From positions 1 to 18,545 of the forward strand of contig QIGJ01000364.1 in NCBI GenBank assembly GCA_003229995.1: a DNA stretch of 18,545 bases. The letters are read 5' to 3'. The stretch comes from Gammaproteobacteria bacterium (lineage in GTDB: Bacteria; Pseudomonadota; Gammaproteobacteria; SZUA-152). The translations under genes were made by a program, and so were the position numbers. How positions within the stretch are numbered: the first letter of the stretch is position 1; each line of letters starts with the position of its first letter. The notes under the pieces were generated by a model. It was not told where the DNA came from, made no database searches, and saw only the letters and a list, made by a program, of their open reading frames with translations. Positions 3,915 to 18,455 of the stretch are shown piece after piece.

Positions 3915-4643
3915 ATGCATAAGTATTTGATTTCAATGTCGGTTGTAGCGTTTGTGACGGGCGTATTCGCAACTGGTGCGATAGCAGCTGCACAATTTCC
4001 AAAAGGTGATGGTAATGTCGCCAGTGGGCAAAGTATTTTTGAAAATGGTAAAGGGGATGTGCCGGCATGTAACTCGTGTCATGGTGCGGATGGCAGCGGT
4101 GATGACAACATGGGTACGCCACGTTTATCAGGGCAGTGGTTTTCTTTCTTGTTAAAGCAGCTCGAAGACTACGCGTCTGATGCGCGTACAGATAACACCA
4201 TGTTCGTGATGAATGCTAATGCGAAGGGCTTAAGTAAGCAAGACCGTCGTGATGTTGCAACCTATCTTGCACAAAAGAAAATAGACTTTAAGGGTTCTGA
4301 TCTTAAGGCGATTGCTGAGGGTGGAACAGAAGTTGGGAAATCGAATTTCGGTAAAAGTCTTGTAGAGTTTGGCAGTCCTGAGTTATCAGCATGCAAATCT
4401 TGTCATGGTTATGCAGGTCGTGGTGCGCCACCTGTCTATCCAATTATTGGTTTGCAGCGGTATACTTACTTAGTTAGTCAGCTAAAGAACTGGCGCGATG
4501 GTACGCGATCAAATGATCCTATGAGTCAAATGCAAAAAGTTGCTCAAAAGATGTCAGACGATGACATTAGAAACGCAGCGGCATATTTGACTAACGCAAA
4601 CCCATACTCTATGGGTAACTTTTACACACCTTATGATCACTAA
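3915..4643 (+). CDS. Diheme cytochrome c4-type protein (periplasmic)
   Basis: The product is 242 aa from ATG 3915, chosen for the GGGAGGGGG ribosome site just upstream and a clean Sec signal peptide (MHKYLISMSVVAFVTGVFAT, cleavage probably after AIAAA near residue 26). It contains two homologous class I cytochrome domains. Domain 1 has CNSCH at 52-56 with a candidate Met ligand at 96 or 99; domain 2 has CKSCH at 160-164 with Met 203 or 206. Two repeats with the HG(A/Y).G.G pattern after each heme and this length are typical of cytochrome c4, a periplasmic or membrane-associated electron shuttle to terminal oxidases. It is monocistronic or co-transcribed with the upstream 29-aa ORF, and ends before a strong terminator at 4704. 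The following cytochrome operon suggests a shared respiratory role. Confidence 0.9.
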   Translation: MHKYLISMSVVAFVTGVFATGAIAAAQFPKGDGNVASGQSIFENGKGDVPACNSCHGADGSGDDNMGTPRLSGQWFSFLLKQLEDYASDARTDNTMFVMNANAKGLSKQDRRDVATYLAQKKIDFKGSDLKAIAEGGTEVGKSNFGKSLVEFGSPELSACKSCHGYAGRGAPPVYPIIGLQRYTYLVSQLKNWRDGTRSNDPMSQMQKVAQKMSDDDIRNAAAYLTNANPYSMGNFYTPYDH

Positions 4644-4703
4644 TATTTAAGATGTGCAGTTAAGAAGCAACGGAACAGTTAGATTATAGATCCGTGTTCA
4701 GGG

Positions 4704-4732
4704 AAAAGCGGGCTTTTAAGCCCGCTTTTTTC
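4704..4732 (+). terminator. Rho-independent terminator after the cytochrome c4 gene
   Basis: AAAAGCGGGCTT (4704-4715) and AAGCCCGCTTTT (4718-4729) form a perfect, GC-cored stem and run into a T tract (4726-4731). It separates cytochrome c4 from the operon starting at 4802. It also shows that an upstream in-frame start at 4694 for the next gene cannot be the real one, since that frame would be translated through the terminator. Confidence 0.9.
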
Positions 4733-4801
4733 TTATATAATAAAAAAAATAAAGTAAGTCATTTTTTATTGCAATTCCCATTTGTAATTGAGTTGAGTAC
4801 A

Positions 4802-5386
4802 ATGAAAAAACAACCCCTAAAGTCTGGTGAAAGAATTCTGTTAACCATTTTTGGCGCATTTTTTGTGTTGGCTATGATTGGTTATGTTGTGCTTGAGGCT
4901 GTGCGGCTGACTTCAGATAAGCCTATGTTTGTGCAAACGACATTTTTTAATTTTTCTGAAGATGGAAAGTCAGGTCATACACTTTACAAAAAATACAACT
5001 GTAATGCTTGTCACCGCGCTATGCGCATGGGGACCAGTATGGGTTTGATTTTGGATGGTATCGGTTCTAAATATGATGCGGAGCGGTTGGAGGCTTTTTT
5101 AACCGACCCTGAGGCGCTTTATGGTGCGGTTACCCTTGATCATGGGCCGTTTAAAGAAGCTGAGTTTGTGGCAAGGCTTCCGACAGAAGAGCGCCGTTTG
5201 CTCGCTGTGTTTTTGTCTGAGTTAAAAGCAGTTGCTGGATCGTCAGTCTCTAAGGTGCCGCCGCCAGAGCGCTCAGAGTTTGTTGATAGTATGGTAACAG
5301 CGTGGGCGCCGGACGATTGGAAAGAAAGATTTTCGGATCTGCGTGAAAAAAATAATGATGGTGATAGTGAGGTTGCACCACAATGA
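4802..5386 (+). CDS. Membrane-anchored monoheme cytochrome c
   Basis: The product is 194 aa from ATG 4802. One N-terminal transmembrane anchor (residues about 11-33, ILLTIFGAFFVLAMIGYVVLE) leads into a periplasmic domain with one heme motif CNACH (67-71), preceded by GHTLYKKYN, and a DGIGSKYDAERLEAFLTDP segment. An anchored single-heme domain of this type recalls NorC or CcoO-like electron-entry subunits of heme-copper oxidases. The axial Met is not obvious (Met 76 or 80 are candidates); the C-terminal part is acidic and lacks the usual late Met motif. Its stop overlaps the next start (ATGA), so it is translationally coupled to the oxidase-like gene. It probably delivers electrons to that protein; this is inferred from the operon. 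The ribosome site (TTGAGT) is weak. Confidence 0.8.
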   Translation: MKKQPLKSGERILLTIFGAFFVLAMIGYVVLEAVRLTSDKPMFVQTTFFNFSEDGKSGHTLYKKYNCNACHRAMRMGTSMGLILDGIGSKYDAERLEAFLTDPEALYGAVTLDHGPFKEAEFVARLPTEERRLLAVFLSELKAVAGSSVSKVPPPERSEFVDSMVTAWAPDDWKERFSDLREKNNDGDSEVAPQ

Positions 5387-5898
5387 ATAAGCCATGGGAG
5401 CATTCGCAAGAAGTTGTATATAGGCGCTATATGCTTTGGTTTGTGTACGCTTGTGTTATTTACAGTATTATTGGTTTTTCGTGGGGCGCGTTGATGGGCG
5501 GTATAGCAGAATTTCGCCATTTTGTTGATCATACTTCGCATGGTCGTTTAATAGTGAGGGCGCATACCCACATTAATTTACTCGGTTGGGTTGAAATGGC
5601 TATTTTTTCAGCAGTTTATTATATTATTCCGAGGATAGTGCAGAGACCCATATATAGCTTGACCTTGGTTAAGGTCCATTTTTGGGTGCATAATGTTGGT
5701 TTGATTGGTATGGTAGTGTTTTTTACCATTGCGGGTGTAGCGGGAAGTTCTGTTTCTGGCGGAGCTCAAGCTGAGGCGGTGGTTGCGCCTTTATTGGCGA
5801 CTATGGGAATGTTTGGCATGTTAGTTTTGTTAGCAAACTTTGTATGGGCGTTTAATATATTTCGCACGTGTAAAGGTTGGGAGAAGAGTAATGTCTAG
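5383..5898 (+). CDS. Four-helix miniature relative of heme-copper oxidase subunit I
   Basis: The product is 171 aa with four predicted helices (about 15-40, 57-82, 95-120, 135-160). Helix 2 contains RAHTHINLLGW (His 61, His 63), strikingly like the helix II low-spin-heme histidine region of cbb3/NOR-type subunit I. Helix 3 starts KVHFWVHNVGLIG (His 99, His 103). Normal subunit I has at least twelve helices and histidines in helices VI, VII and X for CuB and the high-spin heme; those parts are absent, so it cannot be a complete oxygen- or NO-reducing subunit. The reading frame is intact, well spaced and overlaps both neighbours (4 bp with the cytochrome, 8 bp with the thioredoxin-like gene), so it is a real short gene rather than a fragment. 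Likely a bis-His heme b electron-transfer membrane protein; this is inference. Confidence 0.75.
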   Translation: MNKPWEHSQEVVYRRYMLWFVYACVIYSIIGFSWGALMGGIAEFRHFVDHTSHGRLIVRAHTHINLLGWVEMAIFSAVYYIIPRIVQRPIYSLTLVKVHFWVHNVGLIGMVVFFTIAGVAGSSVSGGAQAEAVVAPLLATMGMFGMLVLLANFVWAFNIFRTCKGWEKSNV

Positions 5899-6406
5899 AA
5901 ATGCTGTTGGTTCGCGCTTATTGGTGATTGTTTGCTGTTTGTTTTTAACTGCTGGATGTTTGTTGCCGCCTGATGGCGTTTTAAAAGTGGGTACGATTGC
6001 GCCGGAAATTGAAACGAAAACGCTGAGCGATGTGGGTGGTGATTTAAGTCGGATTACCAGTTATCGTTATCCTGATGAACGCATGTACGAATTGTCTATT
6101 AAAGAAGCTTTATCGATGGGCAAACCTATTTTGGTTGAGTTCGCAACGCCAGGGCATTGTACGGTTTGTGATAAACAGTTGCAGATGTTGAAGGCGCTGA
6201 TGGTGAAATATGAAGGGGAAGTGTTGTTTCTGCATATGGATCAGTATTACAATCCAGAGGCGTTTATTTCGTTTGATGTACGCGGAGACCCTTGGACTTT
6301 TGTGATTGGTGCGGATCGAGTGGTTCAATTTAAACGAGCTGGACGTATGCTTTATAAAGAACTAACCACGGTAATAGACAAGGCGTTGGCTGTAGAGCAA
6401 GGTTAA
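5891..6406 (+). CDS. Thioredoxin-fold lipoprotein
   Basis: The product is 171 aa from ATG 5891, behind GGGAGAAG and overlapping the previous stop by 8 bp. The N-terminus has a lipoprotein signal (RLLVIVCCLFLTAGC; lipobox LTAGC, Cys 23). The thioredoxin domain has the active-site segment VEFATPGHCTVCDKQ (CxxC at 90-93) and the later GDPWTFVIG, supplying the cis-proline loop. The CTVC dipeptide and a PGH lead-in differ from thioredoxin (WCGPC) and from typical TlpA/ResA. Anchored thioredoxins beside cytochromes usually reduce apocytochrome heme-site cysteines or help copper insertion; in this operon it may mature the monoheme cytochrome or the oxidase-like partner. The stop codon lies in the target duplication of the MITE that follows. 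Confidence 0.8.
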   Translation: MSRNAVGSRLLVIVCCLFLTAGCLLPPDGVLKVGTIAPEIETKTLSDVGGDLSRITSYRYPDERMYELSIKEALSMGKPILVEFATPGHCTVCDKQLQMLKALMVKYEGEVLFLHMDQYYNPEAFISFDVRGDPWTFVIGADRVVQFKRAGRMLYKELTTVIDKALAVEQG

Positions 6407-6407
6407 A

Positions 6408-6580
6408 GTAAGCGTTCAGTCCCATTCTGATGTTATCAGTTCAAGGCGAAAAATGTGAGTTTATGCCGAACAGGATGTTCAAATGCCGTGTAGCACACAG
6501 GGATGTGCGGAAGCGGTCAAGTGTAAATGATTATTTTTTAACGTAGAAATGGTGACAACAGGAGGGGCCTGAACGGTTAC
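6408..6580 (+). mobile_element. MITE copy C, 173 bp, with near-perfect 8-bp target duplication
   Basis: The left end GTAAGCGTTCAG (6408-6419) and right end CTGAACGGTTAC (6569-6580) are inverted repeats that stay recognisable for about 25 bp. Flanks AGGTTAAA (6400-6407) and AGGTTAGA (6581-6588) match at 7 of 8 bases, as expected for an 8-bp target duplication with one later change. It is the longest undisturbed copy and the reference for the others; it carries about 52 bp more interior than copy E. There is no open frame of note. The GTAAGCG end plus 8-bp duplication fits the IS66 family pattern. Confidence 0.88.
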
Positions 6581-6611
6581 AGGTTAGAGACGGATTGCGT
6601 GGTAAAGGTTT

Positions 6612-7067
6612 ATGGCAAAAGAAAAAAAAAGCACTTTGGTGCAGGATAAAAAAGGTATGTGGTGGGATCTGGCATTGTATGTGCCTACCGTGATTTTTTT
6701 ACTGTCGATAGGTTTCCAGATGTGGTACACCTCGGATAGGAATTGGTCGTATCCCATTGTGTTTATGGCAACGTTCTTCTTTTTAACGGGGGCTAACCGG
6801 ATTCTTAAGACACGTATGATGATATTGCCTTCTTCTGCAGTTTCGATTGATGCCAATAAACAGCGTATTGTAATGCAGTTACGTAGTGGAGTGGCTTCCG
6901 AGTTGGTTAAAGGAGTCAGATATTTTCCAGACATGGTAGGGAAAAGCTTTGCGCTAACAGGTTTTGATCTCAGCGGTAAAAAACAACAGTTTGTGTTTCA
7001 TAAAGGGCAGTTTGAAAGTGAAGCCGAATTTAAAGACATGCGTGATTTTTTAAGAGTGTATGGTTAA
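6612..7067 (+). CDS. Two-helix membrane protein of unknown function
   Basis: The product is 151 aa. A charged start (MAKEKKSTLVQDKKG) is followed by two close hydrophobic helices (about 19-37 and 47-61) and a C-terminal soluble part of about 85 residues rich in beta-type segments (SAVSIDANKQRIVMQL, FALTGFDLSGKKQQFVFHKGQF). The two-helix-plus-small-domain plan resembles bacterial PH-like/YdbT-type membrane proteins, but I do not recognise the family. ATG at 6612 follows GGTAAAGGTTT; the Shine-Dalgarno is close and weak. MITE copy C sits between this gene and the thioredoxin-like gene, so it may once have been a fourth member of that operon. Confidence 0.65.
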   Translation: MAKEKKSTLVQDKKGMWWDLALYVPTVIFLLSIGFQMWYTSDRNWSYPIVFMATFFFLTGANRILKTRMMILPSSAVSIDANKQRIVMQLRSGVASELVKGVRYFPDMVGKSFALTGFDLSGKKQQFVFHKGQFESEAEFKDMRDFLRVYG

Positions 7068-7246: not shown

Positions 7247-7361
7247 TTTGCTCGTTCTGATGGAGCAAATTGAACCTATAGGCCAAAGCGAAAAATGTGA
7301 ATGTACCTGTGTAAATGATCATTTTTTAACGCCGAATTGGTGGCTCTCACTGAATCATGAA
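7247..7361 (+). mobile_element. MITE copy D, degenerate, directly upstream of sbtA
   Basis: The core (GCGAAAAATGTGA, GTGTAAATGATCATTTTTTA, ACGCCGAATTGGTG) matches copies C and E closely, while both ends have drifted (CGTTCTGATGGAGC on the left, CTCACTGAATCATG on the right). Like copy E it lacks the ~52-bp central block. Boundaries are approximate and no target duplication was found. It ends about 50 bp before the sbtA start, so it may contribute to that gene's promoter region. Confidence 0.65.
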
Positions 7362-7411: not shown

Positions 7412-8350
7412 ATGTCACTGGACCCTGTTGTACTCTTTTTTATGCTTGGTTTGGCTGCTGGCTTGATGCGGGCAGAGATGCGTTTGCCGCCGGCGATATA
7501 CGAGTTTCTCAGTATTATTTTGTTGCTTGCCATCGGGCTGAAGGGGGGGATTGAACTATCCAAACAGTCATTCGGTGATTTACTGCCTGACATAGGCGCA
7601 GTATTGCTAATGGGCTTTGTGTTACCGCTTCTTGCTTTTCCAATACTGCGTTATATTGGGCGATTAAAGAAAGTCGACGCTGCATCTGTGGCAGCACATT
7701 ATGGCTCGGTTAGTGTCGGTACCTATGCCGTGGCGGTCGCTTATCTGGCGTCTCAAGACATTACTTTTGAAGCCTATATGCCATTATTTCTGGTGATACT
7801 GGAAGTTCCTGCCATATTGGTCGGTATTATTTTGGTTCGGGGTATTTCAAAAAAAACTCAGTGGGGAGCATTGTCACATGAAGTGTTTCTGGGCAAAAGT
7901 ATTGTGTTGCTACTCGGTGGTCTGCTGATAGGTTGGATAGCCGGAGCTGAAAGTATTGAAAGCATAGGTGGTTTATTTTTTGACCCATTTAAAGGTATAT
8001 TAGCACTATTTCTTTTGGAAATGGGGTTGATTGCAGCAAGCCAAGTGGGGAGTTTGCGGCGTTATGGGGTCTTTTTGCTGAGTTTTGGTATTATTTTTCC
8101 GATTTTTTCGGCCTGTATTGGTGCTGGACTTGGGTTGATGTTGGAGCTTTCAATAGGTGGTACAGTGTTACTGGCGACCCTGGCGGCGAGTGCTTCCTAC
8201 ATTGCGGTGCCGGCGGCAATGCGTATTGCTCTGCCGGAAGCGAATCCTACCTTATCACTGACGGCTTCGCTCGGTGTAACCTTTCCTTTCAACATTATTT
8301 TCGGTATTCCGTTGTACCATAAGTTGACGGAATACATTTATGGGATATGA
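7412..8350 (+). CDS. sbtA: SbtA-type sodium-dependent bicarbonate transporter
   Basis: The product is 312 aa, almost entirely hydrophobic, with about ten helices in two halves. Family-typical segments are the start DPVVLFFMLGLAAGLMRAEM, LPPAIYEFLSIILLLAIGLKGG, AAHYGSVSVGTYAVA and the second-half equivalent AASASYIAVPAAMRIALPEANP. In cyanobacteria SbtA imports bicarbonate with sodium across the inner membrane for carbon concentration; family members in chemoautotrophic proteobacteria probably do the same. AGGA lies about ten bases before ATG 7412. The central cytosolic linker between halves (RGISKKTQWG) is short. An SbtB-like PII gene follows at 8708, separated by MITE copy E. Carbon uptake is the likely role; substrate specificity is inferred. 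Confidence 0.9.
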   Translation: MSLDPVVLFFMLGLAAGLMRAEMRLPPAIYEFLSIILLLAIGLKGGIELSKQSFGDLLPDIGAVLLMGFVLPLLAFPILRYIGRLKKVDAASVAAHYGSVSVGTYAVAVAYLASQDITFEAYMPLFLVILEVPAILVGIILVRGISKKTQWGALSHEVFLGKSIVLLLGGLLIGWIAGAESIESIGGLFFDPFKGILALFLLEMGLIAASQVGSLRRYGVFLLSFGIIFPIFSACIGAGLGLMLELSIGGTVLLATLAASASYIAVPAAMRIALPEANPTLSLTASLGVTFPFNIIFGIPLYHKLTEYIYGI

Positions 8351-8379: not shown

Positions 8380-8511
8380 AAATGGTTTTGGGTAAGTTAT
8401 TGTTTTTAAAAAAAGAAATAGAGGAGTGTGGGAGTGGGTTGAGTACCAAATTTCCAAGTTTTATATTTTAGTGATACAGAATCAGTGATGGTGAGTGCGA
8501 TAATGTAAAGT

Positions 8512-8632
8512 GTAACCGTTCAGAGCCCTTCTGGAATTTATCAGTTCAAGGCGAAAAATGTGAGTTTACAAGTGTAAATGATCATTTTTTAACGCAGAAA
8601 TGGTGAATTCCAGAAGGGCTCTGAACGGTTAC
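8512..8632 (+). mobile_element. MITE copy E, 121 bp, perfect inverted ends and perfect 8-bp target duplication
   Basis: The 27-bp ends are exact reverse complements (GTAACCGTTCAGAGCCCTTC... at 8512-8538 against 8606-8632). The flanks TGTAAAGT (8504-8511) and TGTAAAGT (8633-8640) are an identical 8-bp direct repeat. The interior is the common MITE core with AAATGATCATTT in the middle. It has no coding capacity, so transposition must have relied on a transposase in trans. Perfect ends and duplication point to a recent insertion. It splits sbtA from the sbtB-like gene, and its transcript would form a strong hairpin that may lower read-through. Confidence 0.95.
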
Positions 8633-8707
8633 TGTAAAGTTGTTGACTGCAAGACAACGCTTCGTCGCTTTTGCCAATATATCGCATGACCTTGGAGGAT
8701 GATGTAC

Positions 8708-9010
8708 ATGACTAATAATATCTGCAAACAAATAACAATTATCACAGAATCTGCGTTGGAACACCGTTTGACGGACGATATCCAGCGGCTGGGTGCTCAC
8801 GGCTACACTATTACCAATGCTCGAGGCAAAGGCCATCGAGGCGTGCGTAATGCGGACTGGAGCACCAGCAGTAACATCCGTGTCGAAGTGGTGTGTGGTG
8901 CGTCGGTAGCTATCGCTATTACAGAGCATTTTAAAGAACACTATTTCGAAAACTACGCGATGATTTTATTTACTAGCGATGTAGAAGTGATGCGCTCGGA
9001 AAAGTTCTGA
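8708..9010 (+). CDS. SbtB-like PII-family regulator
   Basis: The product is 100 aa. ATG 8708 is preferred over ATGs at 8699 and 8702 because GGAGG at 8694-8698 is then nine bases upstream. The fold is PII-type: QITIITES strand, helix, GAHGYTITNARGKGHRG (T-loop entry with the GKG.R signature of SbtB), NIRVEVVC strand, helix, and ENYAMILFTSDVEVMR. SbtB binds adenine nucleotides including cAMP and controls SbtA. This protein ends at SEKF and lacks the C-terminal cysteine-containing loop found in cyanobacterial SbtB, so any redox or apyrase switching there is absent. Position downstream of sbtA supports a partnership, although MITE copy E now separates them. Confidence 0.82.
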   Translation: MTNNICKQITIITESALEHRLTDDIQRLGAHGYTITNARGKGHRGVRNADWSTSSNIRVEVVCGASVAIAITEHFKEHYFENYAMILFTSDVEVMRSEKF

Positions 9011-9576: not shown

Positions 9577-9903
9577 CTAAATTTCACCATCCTTAACTTC
9601 ATTTTTTGTTCTGATCCGGTAAAGTTTTTCTACCGGTAGTATCGCTACGATGCCATCCCCTTCCATATCAAGGCTGGCTGCATCCATGATGGCTTGAGCC
9701 GTCACTTCAGCATCCTTTTCTTCTAAAAACAGCTCAATACGGGCGTGGTTTGTTAGCCAGTCCTTGGCATAAAAATCAGCGTATTCACCATAGCCTTTTA
9801 CCTTGGAGAGACTGAGTCCCTTAACTCCTAATTCCTGTAACTTATGCTCTACTTTATCCAACAGCTCAAAGCGAAATATTGCCGTTATTTTTCGATAGTT
9901 CAT
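9577..9903 (-). CDS. PII-like protein of the metal-efflux-linked type (PII-NG)
   Basis: The product is 108 aa from ATG 9903 (GGAG nine bases upstream). ATG 9930, behind a stronger GGAGGGG, would add nine residues (MTNNLERRT) and is a real alternative. PII features are ITAIFRFELLDKVEHKLQELGVKGLSLSKVKGYGEY (residues 6-41), strand RIELFLEE, GDGIVAILPVEKLYRIRT near the end, where canonical PII has GDGKIFV.PVE...RIRTGE. The T-loop region (YADFYAKDWLTNH) is short and lacks the canonical uridylylated Tyr context. A PII group encoded beside CusA/CzcA pumps is known; its effector and target are not established. It follows cusA after about 100 bases on the same strand, so it is probably co-transcribed and could sense nucleotide or metal state for the pump. 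Confidence 0.8.
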   Translation of the reverse strand: MNYRKITAIFRFELLDKVEHKLQELGVKGLSLSKVKGYGEYADFYAKDWLTNHARIELFLEEKDAEVTAQAIMDAASLDMEGDGIVAILPVEKLYRIRTKNEVKDGEI

Positions 9904-10005
9904 GGTTCGTCGCTCCAGGTTATTTGTCATTTCCAGGCCCCTCCAGTAATTGGGTAAGAAGGCTAAATCCTCAACTCCGAAAGTCATGGATAGGCTTCTC
10001 TGTTT

Positions 10006-13000
10006 TCAGTTTTTCGCCAGTTTATGCTCCATTTGCTCTTCCTCTTGCTCTTCCTCTTGCTCTTCTTTATTTTTACGCATTTGAGTTTTCTCTCTCATCT
10101 GCAACACCCAGCCATAGATGACCGGCAATACCACTAGTGACAAGACGGTGGTGGTCACCATGCCACCCACCATAGGCGCAGCGATGCGCTGCATCACAGA
10201 AGACCCTGTGCCACTGCCCAGCATAATGGGTAATAGGCCTGCGGTAACAGCAACCGCCGTCATGACGATAGGCCGCACGCGTTCAGAGGTGCCAATTCGA
10301 ACACCCTCCATGATTTCGGCCGGGGTCAAAATAATAAAACGGCTCTGCTCTCTCTTCGCCTTTGCCTCGCGTCGCCGTGCGATCTCCTGGTCGATAAAGG
10401 TAAGCACCAGCACACCAATCTCTGCAGCCACCCCAGCCAGCGCGATAAAACCCACCGCAACCGCAACCGACATATTGAAGCCATACCAGTAGATAAGCCA
10501 GATGCCGCCCACCAGTGCAAAGGGCACCGATAACAACACCACAATCGGTGTACTGATGTTGCCAAAATTAAAATAGAGCAGCAGAAAAATCAGCAGCAGG
10601 GTCGCTGGCACCACTACTTTAAGCCGCGCGTTCGCCCGCTCCATATATTCAAACTGCCCCGACCAGGTGACCGTATAACCGGGGGGGATCTCCACCTGTT
10701 CAGCCAGCACTTTTTTGGCATTTGCGACATAGCCGCCAATATCACTGTTTTTGATATCGATATAGAGCCAGGCATTGAGGATCGCATTTTCACTCTTGAT
10801 GACAGGTGCGCCGCGTCGTTCAACGATCTCTGCCACTTGTGCCAGCGGAATTTGCGCGCCCGAAGGGGTGGGAATCAATATCCGCGCCAGGCTTTCGGGC
10901 GAATCACGAAACTCACGAGGATAACGCAAGTTAACCGGGTAGCGTTCCAGCCCTTCTACCGTGTAGGTAACATTCATGCCTCCCACCGCTGAGCTGATTG
11001 TATTTTGCACATCGCCTACCGTCAGACCATAACGCGCGGCTTTTTTTCGGTCGATATCAAAATCGATAAAATAGCCGCCCACCGCCCGATCAGCAAATGC
11101 CGAGAGGGTATCGGGAATGGTCTTCATTGCAGTCTCGATCTCTTTCGAAATGCGTGCCAGCTCATTCAGGTTGGGGCCGCTGACTTTAATGCCTATGGGG
11201 GTTTTGATGCCGGTCGAAAGCATATCGATACGGGTTTTGATCGGCATTGTCCAGGCGTTAGCCAGCCCAGGAAAGCGGATCGCTTTGTCCATCTCCGACA
11301 TCAATGTCTTCATCGACTTGTCAGGATCAGGCCACTCTTCACGCGGCTTCAGCCGGGCAATACTTTCCATCATCGACAACGAGGCGGGGTCCGTTGCCGT
11401 TTCAGCACGCCCCACCTTACCAAATACCGTTTCGACTTCAGGAAAACTTTTGAGTATTTTATCGGTCTGCTGCAACAGTTCTTTTGCTTTGGTGATGGAG
11501 ATACCGGGGAAAGTGGTAGGCATATAGAGTACATCACCTTCATCCAGCGGCGGCATAAACTCGCTGCCCAATTTAGACAGCGGATACCAAGTCCCTGCCA
11601 GCAAAATTACCGCGCCGATCAGCGTCACTTTACGCCAGTTCATGGCGGCTCTAAGCGCCGGGGTGTGCAAAAAATGGAGTGCCCGGTTCACTGGGTTTTT
11701 CGCCTCGGGCATGATCTTGCCACGAATAAACCATCCCATCAACAACGGCACCAGTGTTATCGCCAACAGGGCTGCGGCCGCCATCGAATAGGTACTGGTG
11801 AAAGCCAGTGGCGCAAAAAGACGACCCTCCTGCCCCTGCAAGGTAAAGATCGACAAATAGGATACGGTGATAATCAACAGAGAGAAAAAGAGTGCAGGCC
11901 CCACCTCTTTAGCCGCCGCGGTAGTAGCCGCCCAGCGCTCCTTCGTGGTTAGTTCGGATCCTTTTTTATTGCCCGCCTGCTCCAGATGTTTGTGAGCATT
12001 TTCAATCATCACTATCGCTCCATCGACCATCGCACCAATGGTGATGGCGATTCCACCCAGTGACATGATGTTGGCGTTAAGCCCCTGCCAGCGCATCGCC
12101 AGAAAAGCCAGTAAAATGCCTATTGGGAGCGCAACAATCGCCACCAGTGCCGAACGGGCATGCATCAGAAAAATAATGCAGACGAGGCTAACCACAAAAA
12201 ATTCTTCGATTAATTTTTCAGTCAGATTTTCCACTGCCCGCTCGATCAGCGAACCACGATCATAGGTGGTTACAATTTCGACCCCTTCGGGCAACCCCTT
12301 GCTCAGCTCCGCCAGCTTTGCCCGTACTCCTTCAATTGTCGCCAGCGCATTTTCACCAAAACGCATAATGACAATGCCGCCTACCACTTCGCCTTCACCA
12401 TCCAGCTCCGCCAGACCACGTCGTAACTCGGGGCCGATATGGACATGGGCGATATCCTGGATGCGAATCGGAGTGCCATCGGCATTGGCACCGACGGGAA
12501 TTTCATTGAGATCATCGATACCTTGAATATAACCTCGTCCGCGCACCATGTATTCGGTCTCCGACATTTCGATCAACTTGCCGCCGACATCGTTGTTTGA
12601 CGTTTTGATGGCATGTTTTACTTTGGATAGCGGGATGTTGTAGGCCAGCAACGCATTGGGATCGACCTCTACCTGATACTGTTTAACATATCCCCCCAGA
12701 GCGGCTACTTCAGCGACACCGGGCACCGTCTGCAGTGGATAGCGCAGATACCAGTCCTGAATCGAACGCAGTTGTGAAAGGTCATGACGGCCTGTTTTAT
12801 CGACCAGTGCATATTCGTAGATCCACCCCACGCCGGTCGCATCAGGGCCTAGTACGGGGTTGGTGCCTTCAGGCAAGCGATCGCCCACATAGTTAAGCGC
12901 CTCCAGCACCCGTGATCGCGCCCAGTATATATCGGTGCCATCTTCAAAAATAATATAGACAAAGGAGTAACCAAAAAAGGAGTAGCCTCGCACAATGCTG

Positions 13001-13236
13001 GCATAGGGAACCGAGAGCATCGCCGTTGTCAGTGGATAGGTCACTTGATCCTCTACCACCTGGGGTGCTTGGCCTTCAAATTCGGTAAAGACAATCACTT
13101 GCACATCGGAGAGATCGGGGATTGCATCCAGGGGTGTTGTTTTAACCGCCCACAGACCAACAACGATGATCAAAAAAGTGAAGATCATCACCAGGAATTT
13201 TTGACGGATCGAAAACTCGATAATGCTGGCAATCAT
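10006..13236 (-). CDS. cusA: CusA-type Cu(I)/Ag(I) RND efflux pump
   Basis: The product is 1076 aa with twelve helices and two large periplasmic loops. It is the inner-membrane proton antiporter that takes Cu(I)/Ag(I) from the periplasm or cytosol and passes it through CusB to the outer membrane channel. The three methionines that bind Cu(I)/Ag(I) in E. coli CusA (573, 623, 672) align with Met 572 (VLYMPTTFPG), Met 622 or 623 (SLSMMES) and Met 672 (RIDMLSTGIK). The proton-relay aspartate is in GAMVDGAIVMIEN (Asp 405). These favour Cu/Ag over Zn/Co (CzcA). The C-terminus has an extra acidic tail (KEEQEEEQEEEQMEHKLAKN) made by a 12-bp tandem repeat. Its start overlaps the cusB stop by 4 bp. Confidence 0.95.
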   Translation of the reverse strand: MIASIIEFSIRQKFLVMIFTFLIIVVGLWAVKTTPLDAIPDLSDVQVIVFTEFEGQAPQVVEDQVTYPLTTAMLSVPYASIVRGYSFFGYSFVYIIFEDGTDIYWARSRVLEALNYVGDRLPEGTNPVLGPDATGVGWIYEYALVDKTGRHDLSQLRSIQDWYLRYPLQTVPGVAEVAALGGYVKQYQVEVDPNALLAYNIPLSKVKHAIKTSNNDVGGKLIEMSETEYMVRGRGYIQGIDDLNEIPVGANADGTPIRIQDIAHVHIGPELRRGLAELDGEGEVVGGIVIMRFGENALATIEGVRAKLAELSKGLPEGVEIVTTYDRGSLIERAVENLTEKLIEEFFVVSLVCIIFLMHARSALVAIVALPIGILLAFLAMRWQGLNANIMSLGGIAITIGAMVDGAIVMIENAHKHLEQAGNKKGSELTTKERWAATTAAAKEVGPALFFSLLIITVSYLSIFTLQGQEGRLFAPLAFTSTYSMAAAALLAITLVPLLMGWFIRGKIMPEAKNPVNRALHFLHTPALRAAMNWRKVTLIGAVILLAGTWYPLSKLGSEFMPPLDEGDVLYMPTTFPGISITKAKELLQQTDKILKSFPEVETVFGKVGRAETATDPASLSMMESIARLKPREEWPDPDKSMKTLMSEMDKAIRFPGLANAWTMPIKTRIDMLSTGIKTPIGIKVSGPNLNELARISKEIETAMKTIPDTLSAFADRAVGGYFIDFDIDRKKAARYGLTVGDVQNTISSAVGGMNVTYTVEGLERYPVNLRYPREFRDSPESLARILIPTPSGAQIPLAQVAEIVERRGAPVIKSENAILNAWLYIDIKNSDIGGYVANAKKVLAEQVEIPPGYTVTWSGQFEYMERANARLKVVVPATLLLIFLLLYFNFGNISTPIVVLLSVPFALVGGIWLIYWYGFNMSVAVAVGFIALAGVAAEIGVLVLTFIDQEIARRREAKAKREQSRFIILTPAEIMEGVRIGTSERVRPIVMTAVAVTAGLLPIMLGSGTGSSVMQRIAAPMVGGMVTTTVLSLVVLPVIYGWVLQMREKTQMRKNKEEQEEEQEEEQMEHKLAKN
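10033..10065 (-). repeat. 12-bp tandem repeat encoding the EEEQ tail of CusA
   Basis: The unit TTGCTCTTCCTC occurs at 10033-10044 and 10045-10056, with a partial third at 10057-10065. On the minus strand it encodes EEEQ repeats at the very C-terminus of CusA. It stays in frame, so copy number can change by slippage without breaking the gene. Confidence 0.85.
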
Positions 13237-14639
13237 GGCTGTTCCCCCTCTGACTTCAGAGGCTGATCATCCGTCTTCATTTCGTTTGGTACATCATTCT
13301 TGGGCATTTTCATCTCGCCCATTTTTGCCTCCGTCGCCTCTGTTTCAGTGGTCTCTTTTTTAGATTCATCCGCGCCGGCCATCATCTTCGCCGTTGCTTC
13401 ACGCAGTGAAGATTCTGAGTCGATAAGGAACTGGGCTGAGATCACCACCTCTTCTCCCGCGGCAACCCCTTCCAGGATTTGCGTTTGCCCTTCGCTAGAA
13501 ATCCCAATCACCACTTTACGTGGTTCGAATTTACCCGGTTCACGTACCACAAATACTTGCTTGCGTGTGCCTGAACGCACTACAGCCTGAGATGGAATCA
13601 GTACGGTTGGTTCACTACGGGCGCTCTTTAAGGTGACACTGGCAAACATTGCTGGTAACAGTGCACCATCGCTGTTATCAAATTCCAATCGTACCTTGGC
13701 CGTGCGCGTTTTGCGGTCGAGATAGGGGTAGATGTAGCTGATATGGCCATGAAATTCACGCCCCGGCACCCCTTCCACCGTAATCTGTGCGGTATCATTC
13801 TCTTTGATCCACGGCAGTTCAAATTCATACACCTCGGCATAGACCCATACCTTAGAGAGGTCTGCCAATTGATAAAGCTGGGTATTTGGCATCACATACT
13901 GTCCCGCCAAAACCCCCATTTTAATCACCACACCATCAAAAGGTGAGTGAATGTGTGTTTCTCGGCTAATTTCACCACTGCGCTCCAGTTCCTTGATCTG
14001 ATGTTCAGGCATATCGAGCAGCTCCAACCGCAGGCGTGCCGACTTTACTAGGCTCTCTGCTCCGTGGCGAATATCTTTCAGCGGACTGTTCGCCAGCGTT
14101 TTGCGATTGCTTAATGCCAGCAGATACTCCTCCTGACTGGCTACGAGTTGAGGGGAGTAGATACTCAATAGCACATCTCCTTTTTTCACCTGGGCACCGG
14201 TTTTATCCACCATTAAAGTCCCAATCCAGCCGTTGATCTTGGGGTAGATGCGTGTCAACAGAGTTTCGTCAAAATCGACTCGCCCAACCGCACGCACGGC
14301 GCGAGAGAGCGGTCCTTCAATTGCTATCTCAGTGCGCACTCCGATATTTTGCACCGTGGTGGGATCAATTTTGACGGTGCCGGCGGGCGCATTACTGTCG
14401 GTCTCATCTTCAGCATAAACGGGAATGTAATCCATTCCCATGCTGTCTTTAGCGGGTATTGGTGATGTCACGGTGGGGATCATGGCATTGCGATAGAAAA
14501 GCGGTTTACGTTCTGTTGCCGCCTGGTTTTCTATGCCGCTATTTGGTGGTGCTTCGCTGCCACCAAAAAGCAGGTACCCCCCACCCAGGCCCGCTACCAA
14601 CGCAGCACCGATTGCCATTGAATTTATTTTATTACTCAT
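13233..14639 (-). CDS. cusB: CusB-type periplasmic adaptor (membrane fusion protein)
   Basis: The product is 468 aa. An N-terminal membrane segment (MAIGAALVAGLGGGYLLFGG) is followed by the metal-binding start region FYRNAMIPTVTSPIPAKDSM and GMDYIPVYAE. Met 53, 67 and 69 correspond to the Met triad of E. coli CusB (49, 64, 66). A barrel-sandwich/lipoyl region (GWIGTLMVDKTGAQVKKGDV), helical hairpin and beta-barrel (KVWVYAEVYEFELPWIKE) follow. It links CusA to the outer membrane channel and hands over Cu(I). The C-terminus (about 413-468) is an unusual charged tail with several Met residues (KMMAG, KMGEMKMPK, NEMK). Start ATG 14639 overlaps the upstream stop by 8 bp. There is no CusF gene in the operon. 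Confidence 0.93.
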   Translation of the reverse strand: MSNKINSMAIGAALVAGLGGGYLLFGGSEAPPNSGIENQAATERKPLFYRNAMIPTVTSPIPAKDSMGMDYIPVYAEDETDSNAPAGTVKIDPTTVQNIGVRTEIAIEGPLSRAVRAVGRVDFDETLLTRIYPKINGWIGTLMVDKTGAQVKKGDVLLSIYSPQLVASQEEYLLALSNRKTLANSPLKDIRHGAESLVKSARLRLELLDMPEHQIKELERSGEISRETHIHSPFDGVVIKMGVLAGQYVMPNTQLYQLADLSKVWVYAEVYEFELPWIKENDTAQITVEGVPGREFHGHISYIYPYLDRKTRTAKVRLEFDNSDGALLPAMFASVTLKSARSEPTVLIPSQAVVRSGTRKQVFVVREPGKFEPRKVVIGISSEGQTQILEGVAAGEEVVISAQFLIDSESSLREATAKMMAGADESKKETTETEATEAKMGEMKMPKNDVPNEMKTDDQPLKSEGEQP

Positions 14640-15912
14640 AGATCGTCTCCTCGCCTACCGCCGCAACCAGTCGGGCAATGGCCTGACGAGTCTTGCTAAA
14701 GGCATTCCAATATTGGGTTTCGTAGTTATAGAGTGTGATCTGAGCGCGCATCACGTTAAGAAAATCGACTTTATTAACCTGGTATCCAGCCAGCATGGAG
14801 GCTACGGTTTGCTCCGCCTGAGGAATGATTCCGGTTTTAAAAAGTTCAGCTTTTTCACTGCCGCGACGATAGTCCGACAGCGCCTTACCAATAGCGGCTT
14901 CCACCCGATTTTGATCATCCGCCAGCGCGTAGCGCTGCCCCAGATGCTCAGCGTTACGCTGGTCTACCGCCCGGTCCTGCTTGGTTCCCGTATAGAGAGG
15001 CAGGCTCATACCAAACATCAGCGAAACAAAATCATCACGGGTCGTACCGTTAGGGTTATTGCCCTGCCGTAAGCCATAGGCCACGCCCACATTAAAATCG
15101 GGATAGTACTCTTTCCGGGCCAGATCCAGCCGTAGGCGTGCCGCTTCCAACCGATGTTCCCTCGCCGCCAACATGGGGCGCACCTGAGCGGCACGTGCCA
15201 CCAATACACTTTCGCCGCGCAGTGACGGAACGTTTTCTCCTTCCTCGTCAGGCAACACGACAGGCCTGGTTGCCGGGCGGTCGAGCAGCGTGTTGAGGCG
15301 AATCGCCTCATTACGTCTCATTCCCTCCAGATCGACCTGGCTATCAAATAGTTTGGAGAGCTCTAATTGTGCTAATAACACATCCTGTTGCAGACCTTTA
15401 CCAACACGATATTTGCTTTCCGCGACCTCAATAAACTGGCGCATCAGCGCCTGGTTATTGGTCACCACCTCCAATGCTCGATCAAGAAAAAAGAGATTCC
15501 ACCAGACCATTTTCACATCTCGAACCAGCTTTAGGCGCAATTCACCCACCCCGAAACCGGCCGCACTCGCCATCGCCTGGGCGGCTTCTTGGCGCAATCC
15601 GAGTTTGCCAGGGAAAGGTAACATTTGACTAAAAGCAAGTTGTGTTTGGGTCATCCCTTCTTGAGTGAAGGAAAAACTATCGATGGGCAGATTTACCAGT
15701 TTAAGTGACAGCTGAGGATCCGGTAACGTCCCTAATTGATCCGGCAGTGCGGCCAACGCTTCGGCACGAGCGCTAATGGCCGCCAGATCAGGGTTCACCT
15801 CTAGCACCTCGGAAACAGCGGCCTTTATTGGCAAGACCTCCGCGGCGAAAAGCGGGGCGCTGGTTGATAACAATATGAGCGCGGCCAGTGGCCACTTGAC
15901 TATTTTTTTCAT
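14632..15912 (-). CDS. CusC/TolC-family outer membrane efflux protein
   Basis: The product is 426 aa from ATG 15912, preferred because it gives a standard signal peptide (MKKIVKWPLAALILLSTSAPLFAA) and has GAGAA nine bases upstream. Two OEP repeats follow: VLEVNPDLAAISARAEALAA ..., then LAFSQMLPFPGKLGLRQEA and, in the second half, RLDLARKEYYPDFNVGVAYG and LMFGMSLPLYTGTKQDRAVD. It forms the trimeric exit duct with CusAB. Unlike E. coli CusC there is no lipobox cysteine, so it is probably not lipidated. The frame stays open upstream to ATG 16023, which has its own AAGGGGG site and overlaps the end of the preceding small gene; that start would add 37 residues, several of them Met and His. Confidence 0.9.
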   Translation of the reverse strand: MKKIVKWPLAALILLSTSAPLFAAEVLPIKAAVSEVLEVNPDLAAISARAEALAALPDQLGTLPDPQLSLKLVNLPIDSFSFTQEGMTQTQLAFSQMLPFPGKLGLRQEAAQAMASAAGFGVGELRLKLVRDVKMVWWNLFFLDRALEVVTNNQALMRQFIEVAESKYRVGKGLQQDVLLAQLELSKLFDSQVDLEGMRRNEAIRLNTLLDRPATRPVVLPDEEGENVPSLRGESVLVARAAQVRPMLAAREHRLEAARLRLDLARKEYYPDFNVGVAYGLRQGNNPNGTTRDDFVSLMFGMSLPLYTGTKQDRAVDQRNAEHLGQRYALADDQNRVEAAIGKALSDYRRGSEKAELFKTGIIPQAEQTVASMLAGYQVNKVDFLNVMRAQITLYNYETQYWNAFSKTRQAIARLVAAVGEETIYE

Positions 15913-16009
15913 AAATTTTTCTCGGTTAATCATGAGCAAAACATCCACAGGGGCATCAAATGCAGCGGCAATCGACATGTTCGATAGGGACATTTCGGAG
16001 TGATTCATT

Positions 16010-16123
16010 TTATTTTCTGTCATCACCGTCCCCCTTGCCATGCCCTCCGTGCATGAAAGCCATCATCGCAACACAACAGACCACTAATAAAAGTATTAAC
16101 CAGTTTGCGGATAACCATTCCAT
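16010..16123 (-). CDS. 37-aa DUF2933-like small membrane protein, first gene of the cus operon
   Basis: ATG 16123 is preceded by GAGGAG eight bases upstream; stop TAA is at 16010-16012. One transmembrane helix (WLSANWLILLLVVCCVAMMAFM) leads into a short His/Gly tail (HGGHGKGDGDD). Small proteins with a helix and an HGGHG tail (DUF2933) are common beside copper resistance genes, where Met, Cys and His could bind copper at the membrane; the function is not established. The stop overlaps the possible upstream start (16023) of the cusC-like gene, so it is part of the operon. It is short for that family (usually around 60 aa). Confidence 0.65.
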   Translation of the reverse strand: MEWLSANWLILLLVVCCVAMMAFMHGGHGKGDGDDRK

Positions 16124-16286: not shown

Positions 16287-17063
16287 TCACTTATCATTAC
16301 AAGGTGCCCCTGGGCGACAGCGCAAAAACCAGATTTGATAGAGCGAGATGAGAATTTGCAACGCCCACGATAACCCCAGAAGACCGCCCGCAATGATCAC
16401 GGTATAGGCATAAATGGGATCCCATTTGGTGAGAAACCAGGCGGCGATGTCGATAAAAATTGCGACAAACGGCAATAGTGTTAATGTGTATTGAAACCAG
16501 GCAGGGAGCAGCGCAAAACGAAACACAAGGCCAATTGCAAATGCAACCAGTGCAATGCCAAACAGGTGAATATGAGACACCTTCATTAAACTATGTAACG
16601 AAACCCCAGTGTCCACGTTGGCAACCAGTTTGATTCCCTCGTAACTGGTAAAGTCGGGTATCTGCAAACCGGAGTCGGGACTGTGGCACATCACGCAGCG
16701 TTCGTCGAACATCGGCTTGATGATGCGTTCATAGTCTGCTTGAAGGGCGCCCGATTTCAGCCACTCAACGACATGATTACGCTGTTCAACTTCGATGTAG
16801 CTCGCCATCGGGCCTCGTAGTGCTGACTCCAAGCGGGTACCACTACGGTTGCCGTAGTAGTTCTCGGCAACATCTTCCACTGACAGACCCGGCTTGCCAT
16901 CAATGCCGTCAAAGCTGGTATAAAGATAGGCCAGCGCCATTAGATAGCCGAGTCCTGCCAGTAACAAAAACGACGTGTATAAGAATTTTTCATTCAGTGT
17001 GCAGTTATAAAAACGCCGCGGCACAATGGTAGGACAAATTTCTGGTTGATTCTTTTTATTCAT
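16287..17063 (-). CDS. Four-helix membrane protein with a single heme c motif
   Basis: The product is 258 aa. An N-terminal helix (about 27-48) is followed by a periplasmic region of about 110 residues with one heme motif CVMCH (123-127) in IIKPMFDERCVMCHSPD, a typical c-type site. Three more helices follow (about 162-184, 188-210, 219-244). The second helix begins KVSHIHLFGIALVAF with His 164 and His 166, recalling the HxHxxLxG helix of the mini oxidase-like protein at 5383. I do not know a named family; a membrane heme-c/heme-b electron carrier is a reasonable inference. It lies 47 bases after the small cytochrome c on the same strand, so the two probably form an operon. ATG 17063 follows GGAGTGAAAGG. 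Confidence 0.65.
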   Translation of the reverse strand: MNKKNQPEICPTIVPRRFYNCTLNEKFLYTSFLLLAGLGYLMALAYLYTSFDGIDGKPGLSVEDVAENYYGNRSGTRLESALRGPMASYIEVEQRNHVVEWLKSGALQADYERIIKPMFDERCVMCHSPDSGLQIPDFTSYEGIKLVANVDTGVSLHSLMKVSHIHLFGIALVAFAIGLVFRFALLPAWFQYTLTLLPFVAIFIDIAAWFLTKWDPIYAYTVIIAGGLLGLSWALQILISLYQIWFLRCRPGAPCNDK

Positions 17064-17491: not shown

Positions 17492-18455
17492 TTACAATTT
17501 CACTCTCTTTAATCTAAGTGTGTTGGTAATCACCGATACGGAGCTAAAACCCATCGCCGCCGCTGCAATAATAGGTGAAAGGAATATACCAAATACGGGG
17601 TAAAGTACCCCTGCCGCAACCTGCACTCCGGCAGCGTTATAGATGAAAGCAAAAAAGAGGTTTTGACGAATGTTACGCATGGTGGCGCGACTCAGGCGTC
17701 TGGCTCGCACGATGCCGCGCAGATCGCCTTTAACCAGCGTCACCCCGGCGCTTTCCATCGCAACATCAGTCCCCGTTCCCATTGCAATGCCGACATGAGC
17801 TTGTGCTAGGGCGGGCGCATCATTGATGCCGTCACCGGCCATGGCGACGATGTGTCCTTCAGCCTGTAGCTGTTTGACCACTTCGGCTTTTTGCTCTGGC
17901 AACACTTCGGCTTGTACTTGGTCGATATCCAACTTGGCAGCAACGGCTTCTGCAGTTTTACGGCTGTCGCCCGTGAGCATCACTATTTTGATCCCTTCAC
18001 CGTGCAGGTCACGGATCGCTTCGGGAGTGGTTTCTTTAATGGGGTCGGCGACACCGATCATGCCAGCGGCTTTGCCATCGATGGCTAACAGCATTACGGT
18101 TTGACCTTCACTGCGCTGTTGGTCAGCCTGTTGTGGCAGATCACCCGCATCGATATTCAGACTTTCCAATAACTTGATATTACCCAGCGCCACCTTGCGG
18201 CCATCAACCACACCCGTGACGCCCATGCCGGTGATGGATTGAAAATCACCGGCTTGAATTAACGTCACGCCGCGTGCTTCAGCCCCTTGAACGATGGCCT
18301 CAGCCAATGGGTGTTCGCTGGCGCGTTCCAGGCTGGCGGCAAGACGTAGGTTGTCATTTTCCTGAAAACCGTTCGTTGCGATTACCGAGACCAATTTGGG
18401 CTTGCCTTCGGTTAGGGTGCCGGTCTTGTCGACCACTAAGGTATCAACTTTGCGT
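17492..18455 (-). pseudogene. copA: C-terminal remnant of a CopA-type Cu+-exporting P1B ATPase
   Basis: About 320 residues remain, starting around [19 protein letters not shown] with the phosphorylated Asp in DKTGT. Still present are the SEHPLAEA motif of P1B ATPases, [12 protein letters not shown] and the last two helices with YNAAG and MGFSSVS, the pattern of Cu+-ATPases (P1B-1). Everything upstream is lost: metal-binding domains, the first six helices with the CPC site, and the actuator domain. The frame hits a stop (TGA, 18464-18466) just beyond the break. GTG at 18436 could start a 314-aa soluble-plus-two-helix fragment, but it could not transport. The break coincides with a sequence starting GTAAC at 18456, so insertion of a mobile element is the likely cause. 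The enzyme normally exports cytosolic Cu(I). Confidence 0.85.

Follow-up and report, generated by a model that had tools for sequence, protein, structure and literature searches.

A conserved gene unit beside cbb3-like oxidase loci encodes an anchored cytochrome c, a four-helix CcoN-like protein and a thioredoxin-fold lipoprotein

A trio of overlapping genes

The window analysed here is the whole of an 18,545-nt stretch, contig QIGJ01000364.1 of assembly GCA_003229995.1 (Gammaproteobacteria bacterium, SZUA-152), and positions below are counted along it. Its forward strand carries three intact open reading frames that form an overlapping trio. The first encodes a membrane-anchored mono-heme cytochrome c (4802-5386, 194 amino acids) with one N-terminal transmembrane (TM) helix, a C67xxC70H71 motif and conserved M80 and H114. 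It overlaps by 4 bp the gene for a 171-amino-acid, four-TM protein (5383-5898), here called mini, which resembles helices IX-XII of the oxidase subunit CcoN and carries H61-x-H63 and H99/H103. An 8-bp overlap leads to the gene for a thioredoxin-fold lipoprotein (5891-6406, 171 amino acids) with lipobox C23 and the sequence H89-C90-T-V-C93. Both overlaps and the intact frames had been reported in a reading made from the letters of the window alone (the sequence-only reading), and the gene coordinates confirm them.

We surveyed gene order in the best 80 of 216 relatives recovered by a scan of genome contigs. The trio is present in 79/80 of these loci, which bears out the earlier proposal that the three genes are built as one unit. 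A gene for a two-TM protein joins the trio in 78/80 loci, and the misses lie at contig edges. The window copy of this fourth gene (6612-7067, +) encodes a 151-amino-acid membrane protein that scores 17 bits against Pfam 2TM (cut-off 24.8) and is separated from the trio by a copy of a dispersed hairpin repeat. The three-gene module described earlier is conserved, but the unit is larger, with a diheme cytochrome gene upstream and the 2-TM gene downstream.

The motifs of the two partner proteins are also conserved. The anchored cytochrome keeps CxxCH in 90/90 sequences and matches Pfam Cytochrom_C at 22.3 bits (cut-off 21.3), as expected of a class I cytochrome c; its best-scoring solved relative is subunit A of alternative complex III (ACIII; 9.3e-7). 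H114 is invariant in 37 sequences and sits about where a Met ligand would be expected, making a His/His heme c possible. The lipoprotein scores just below the Pfam Thioredoxin cut-off (22.7 versus 23.5 bits); the CxxC and the lipobox Cys are both present in 92/92 sequences, in agreement with a thioredoxin-fold lipoprotein.

Mini corresponds to the C-terminal third of CcoN

By profile match, mini is a member of the heme-copper oxidase superfamily. The window protein matches Pfam COX1 (PF00115) at 1e-14 (54.7 bits, cut-off 34.8) over profile positions 305-406, and 55/55 sequences of the mini set match this family at E ≤0.01 (best 2.2e-19). With 171 amino acids and four TM helices, mini falls short of a full subunit I, defined by twelve TM helices, the CuB ligands and a helix II heme ligand. 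The five listed CcoN chains of the PDB give E values from 2.7e-13 to 2.8e-10 against a profile built on 18 sequences of mini. When a mini hidden Markov model was scored against the thirds of 25 CcoN proteins, the C-terminal third reached 48-72 bits, the N-terminal third at most 34 and the middle third at most 26. Subunit I of heme-copper oxidases carries an internal threefold repeat, and this pattern of scores is the one expected from such a repeat. On these alignments mini is a free-standing equivalent of the C-terminal third of CcoN (helices IX-XII).

H61 and H63 of mini align with H345 and H347 in helix X of CcoN (PDB 3mk7), the ligands of heme b3 (high-spin) and heme b (low-spin); the other active-site residues of CcoN are H60, H207, H257, H258 and Y251. 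The sequence-only reading had called the surrounding RAHTHINLLGW ‘helix II-like’. This motif (residues 59-69) belongs to helix X; the N-terminal third of CcoN is matched too, yet its lower scores led us to reject a helix II assignment. The same reading had assigned to mini neither CuB nor high-spin heme ligands. The CuB ligands indeed have no counterpart, nor does the helix II ligand, but H61 stands at the high-spin ligand position. The reported helix with two further histidines is present, with H99 and H103.

Ten residues never vary among the 113 sequences of mini, of which 94 are distinct (a few contigs were counted under two names): H61, H63, N65, W69, E71, H99, H103, N104, N152 and N158. 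H53 is replaced by Phe in 11 of the 113. A histidine at the H103 position is not unique to mini, being found in 3/25 aligned CcoN (L122, L124 and L125). Mini is also the second slowest-evolving of eight locus genes (mean distance 0.26; the slowest, CcoN, 0.19). Two outcomes had been named as fatal to the sequence-only reading, namely that mini is a truncated pseudogene and that the trio or His 61/63/99/103 are unconserved; the trio in 79/80 loci and the four histidines in 113/113 sequences speak against both, and mini is therefore no pseudogene. Its conservation and position in a tree likewise led us to reject a recent break-up of the neighbouring CcoN. In this tree, which does not include DUF2871, mini falls outside the group formed by the C-terminal thirds of distal CcoN, canonical CcoN and a second small family, mini2 (97/97). 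This placement is unsure, the tree program flagging a junction of long branches at that point and the tree being rooted at its midpoint.

Mini2 is a small heme-copper oxidase-like family with an HAHIN motif (11 sequences, from L026:7616-8221 on the minus strand and other loci). It lies near a polyferredoxin-like gene of the same region, and in the tree mini and mini2 make up separate clades.

Hydropathy and an AlphaFold2 model (mean pLDDT 85.8) agree with the four helices described earlier, and the model breaks the second helix into two pieces (52-65 and 68-86). From the conserved candidate ligand positions we infer that mini may bind heme, with the His pair probably near one side of the membrane.

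A diheme cytochrome and a CcoN-like oxidase flank the unit

The genes around the trio follow a usual order: a cyc1-like gene, the trio, the 2-TM gene and then a CcoN-like oxidase. Where the DNA extends over 2 kb upstream of the trio, a diheme cytochrome gene precedes it in 57/68 loci, and the 11 that lack it are all assigned to Zetaproteobacteria or carry Mariprofund- names. In the window this gene (3915-4643, +) encodes a diheme c4-type periplasmic cytochrome with two CxxCH motifs. We tentatively regard it as Cyc1-like from its two hemes, its size and its locus position, compared with those portions of the published description that were available. A terminator-like hairpin with a T-rich 3′ arm and tail (4700-4733, +) lies between the diheme gene and the trio; the RNA fold of 4695-4740 has a free energy of −22.8 kcal/mol (z −6.2). 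A simple promoter and terminator scan of the window found no more sites than in shuffled sequences, with fewer terminator-like ones, and did not list this hairpin.

Downstream, a CcoN-like gene with all ligands follows the trio in 56/58 loci with at least 3 kb of DNA on that side; L047 has it upstream and L075 has none on its DNA. A second set of 21 loci came from whole-genome searches (20 plus L033), several of them contigs of the 80-locus set. Here the diheme cytochrome accompanies the quartet in 21/21 loci and the CcoN-like gene in 16/21; three of the remaining five end soon after the module, and L033 and L188 have no such gene in the roughly 6 and 8 kb of DNA that follow. The alignment of one CcoN-like protein to 3mk7 covers residues 16-462 (E 9.5e-60), and the six ligand histidines and the tyrosine are kept in 11/11 aligned CcoN of the distal type. 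A FixO/CcoO protein follows the CcoN-like gene, and a CcoP-like protein, s212, matches FixP_N weakly and shows no CxxCH in the one copy inspected. The neighbouring oxidase thus looks complete. The terminal acceptor, earlier called unknown, has a candidate in this oxidase at 56 of 58 loci.

An additional 173-amino-acid membrane protein without a Pfam match (L025:13441-13962) recurs in the oxidase locus beside another anchored mono-heme cytochrome.

Oxidases called ‘distal cbb3’ have been described for Zetaproteobacteria (PMC7029218) and for Sideroxydans (PMC8788666), and in Candidatus Tenderia the ‘complex IV-2’ genes were reported to be expressed among the highest of any genes on a cathode (PMC5371394), in the available parts of these texts. 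The Tenderia region with Cyc1 and a polyferredoxin is described there as syntenic with Mariprofundus ferrooxydans (PMC5371394). Resemblance to these partial accounts suggests that the trio-linked oxidase may be the published ‘distal cbb3’ or ‘complex IV-2’, an equation that is drawn here.

Hosts and distribution

The 80 loci include 23 assigned to Zetaproteobacteria or carrying Mariprofund- names, among them M. ferrooxydans PV-1 (L120) and Mariprofundus sp. EBB-1 (L099). Candidatus Tenderia contributes a single locus (L063), and most of the rest are from gammaproteobacterial assemblies. We identified mini in 34/369 genomes of a class survey. A phylum survey of 398 genomes found mini orthologs, scoring 274 bits or more (the next match down scored 71.5), in 45 and the marker s212 in 41; 38 genomes have both, 7 mini alone and 3 s212 alone, a co-occurrence for which Fisher's test ignores shared ancestry. 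In the mini-rich family f70, the 14 listed genomes of genus g130 have neither mini nor s212, so not all of this family requires the module. In a plasmid collection mini found a single partial match (33% identity over 57% of its length).

A possible route for electrons into the inner membrane

The reading that we favour, although we hold it tentatively and at somewhat less than even odds, is that the trio encodes a subcomplex of the inner membrane that transfers electrons by way of heme c and heme b, has a dedicated thiol-maturation factor and works alongside Cyc1 and the oxidase of the distal cbb3 type. For heme occupancy, oligomeric state, partners and electron direction we infer the following arrangement. 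Periplasmic Cyc1 would pass electrons to the anchored cytochrome c (4802-5386), which would reduce one or more b-type hemes held by the HxH motif of mini near the periplasmic face. These hemes would feed the distal cbb3 oxidase (CcoN/CcoO-like) of iron- and electrode-oxidizing lineages. Mini would probably oligomerise or pair with a partner and in this way supply the heme ligands given in CcoN by the other two thirds. The thioredoxin lipoprotein would keep the thiols of CxxCH or of a copper site reduced during assembly. The compact heme c to heme b complex with a redox factor proposed in the sequence-only reading is plausible given the conserved unit and histidines, apart from its statement on the acceptor and its limit to three genes.

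Several points weigh against this proposal. Confidence in the mini model is low at the HxH segment. A strict tie to iron is opposed by two reports, each available in part: distal ccoN and ccoO of Sideroxydans are upregulated in thiosulfate culture (PMC8788666), and Fe(II)-oxidizing CP strains are described without cyc1 and cbb3 (PMC5513912).

Thioredoxin-fold lipoproteins typically serve as maturation partners, and the trio could instead be an assembly module. By mimicking the C-terminal third of CcoN, mini would then hold heme b and pass it on, the lipoprotein and cytochrome c would aid maturation of heme c or CuB, and none of the three would stay in the mature distal cbb3 oxidase. The strong co-occurrence of the trio with the oxidase locus is consistent with such a role, as is a polyferredoxin-like gene (named by eye) in the same region where the DNA reaches that far (10 matches to the seed). 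The invariant CxxCH of the anchored cytochrome, the slow evolution of mini, second only to CcoN, and the presence of the unit on some contigs with no adjacent oxidase gene argue the other way, and we consider an assembly role the less likely of the two, though a serious contender.

The separability of the unit from the oxidase, as in the window, L033, L188 and L075, also fits an uphill branch in which electrons leave Cyc1, cross heme c and then heme b, and enter the quinone pool by reverse electron transport instead of reaching oxygen. The hosts need a transfer from cytochrome c to quinone, and the invariant E71, N65 and N104 could serve quinone or proton chemistry. We know of no quinone site in the C-terminal third of the oxidase fold, however, and the His pair probably lies near one membrane side only. 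Another route exists as well: according to the accessible part of one text (PMC7029218), every group of Zetaproteobacteria has bc1 genes and a few groups have ACIII. Such a branch seems improbable to us. Least probable of all is that mini is a five-coordinate b-heme protein binding nitric oxide, O2 or peroxide to protect or regulate the oxidase. H61 stands at the high-spin position, and styrene oxide isomerase is described, in the portion available, as a trimer of four-TM chains in which a histidine binds heme b and the sixth site is left open (PMC11374702). Electron transfer accounts better for the three other invariant histidines of mini and for its constant pairing with a cytochrome c, and the isomerase is absent from the listed matches of mini.

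A more novel possibility, which we rate as unlikely, is that mini is an independent four-helix heme-copper oxidase unit whose homotrimer rebuilds, from identical copies, the pseudo-threefold ring that subunit I forms within one chain, with b-hemes at the interfaces, as a dedicated relay of neutrophilic iron and electrode oxidation. If true, the homotrimer would serve as an extant model for the ancestral unit of the oxidase and would be a missing part of the Cyc2-Cyc1-oxidase pathway. The unit bears on how neutrophilic iron oxidizers move electrons from periplasmic carriers into the inner membrane: it is very strongly conserved, adjoins a cytochrome and an oxidase of the kinds to which that step has been ascribed and occurs in cultured Mariprofundus (L099, L120). 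A detached third of subunit I kept under strong constraint also bears on the origin of the oxidase fold from repeats.

Other features of the window

The hairpin repeat is about 122 bp long with 47-nt arms when whole and resembles a miniature inverted-repeat transposable element; copies lie at 113-434, 1074-1159, 6408-6581, 7284-7342 and 8511-8632. It occurs on four contigs of this assembly (C2, C16, C17 and C92) and on 11 contigs of genome G587 (family f121), and was not found in G002 or G006 of the same genus as the window. The gene at 1227-2693 has 81% identity to G587 and 41-42% within its own family. Further right, 10006-13236 has 78% identity to same-genus G001 and 52% to G587, and 16287-17063 reaches 84% in its own family and is barely matched in G587. 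The left part of the contig is closest to G587 and the right part to the nominal family; this split affinity and the repeat distribution lead us to suspect that the contig may have been mis-binned or transferred. In the same assembly, contig C261 carries a second trio and C21 carries oxidase genes; we claim no paralogy.

A bicarbonate transporter gene (Sbt_1, 4.5e-117) at 7412-8350 directly follows the module. By eye, small open reading frames at 8699-9010 and 9577-9987 look PII-like, 10006-16041 (−) resembles an RND (resistance-nodulation-division) efflux operon and 17492-18436 (−) resembles part of a P-type metal ATPase. A 258-amino-acid protein (16287-17063, −) has a TM helix, a CxxCH and then several TM helices, with SHIHLFGI invariant in 10 sequences; it occurs in 28/57 genomes searched and matches no Pfam family above cut-off. 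HMMER and hhalign detected no similarity to mini, and we rejected it as a fused relative; it may be an independent membrane protein that combines cytochrome c with b-heme.

Comparison with known systems

Mini has a few small counterparts. DUF2871 (PF11070) is matched by 48/55 mini sequences at E ≤0.01, the window protein scoring under its cut-off (23.5 versus 27.4 bits). Other small COX1-like proteins are mini2 (201 amino acids) and L130:761-1156 (−; 132 amino acids), which reaches COX1 at 3.5e-6, under the cut-off, resembles NnrS weakly and matched no heme-copper chain in a PDB search; L130 hints at small heme-copper oxidase-like units elsewhere. Styrene oxide isomerase, described in the accessible text as about 170 amino acids with four TM helices, a trimer with heme b bound by H58 (PMC11374702), resembles mini in size and helix number by analogy only; the matches listed for mini, by sequence or by structure, do not include it, an absence that does not amount to exclusion.

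We located no described function of the trio in the available literature, whose supplements lie outside this coverage and may list the gene. A small subunit-I-like protein beside cyc1 goes unmentioned in the available portions of PMC4643136, PMC5566968, PMC6443915, PMC10654088, PMC10734462, PMC11374702 and PMC12502698. In the same lineages, a locus made up like ‘distal cbb3’ or ‘complex IV-2’ has the trio as its conserved neighbour; the published texts, as far as available, name cyc1, ccoN and ccoO and not mini, its cytochrome or the thioredoxin.

NorC/NorB likewise pairs an anchored mono-heme cytochrome c with a membrane subunit of the heme-copper family, and the profile of mini reaches NorB at 1.7e-7. 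NorB differs in having the full length of a subunit, and the trio cytochrome matches NorC at E 0.14 only. The helix II His, the CuB ligands and the cross-linked Tyr are functional residues of CcoN; mini, at about one third of the length of CcoN, has none of them, but it resembles CcoN (PF00115, C-family) in the sequence and predicted fold of helices IX-XII and shares with it the HxH at H345/H347 and the helix XI His.
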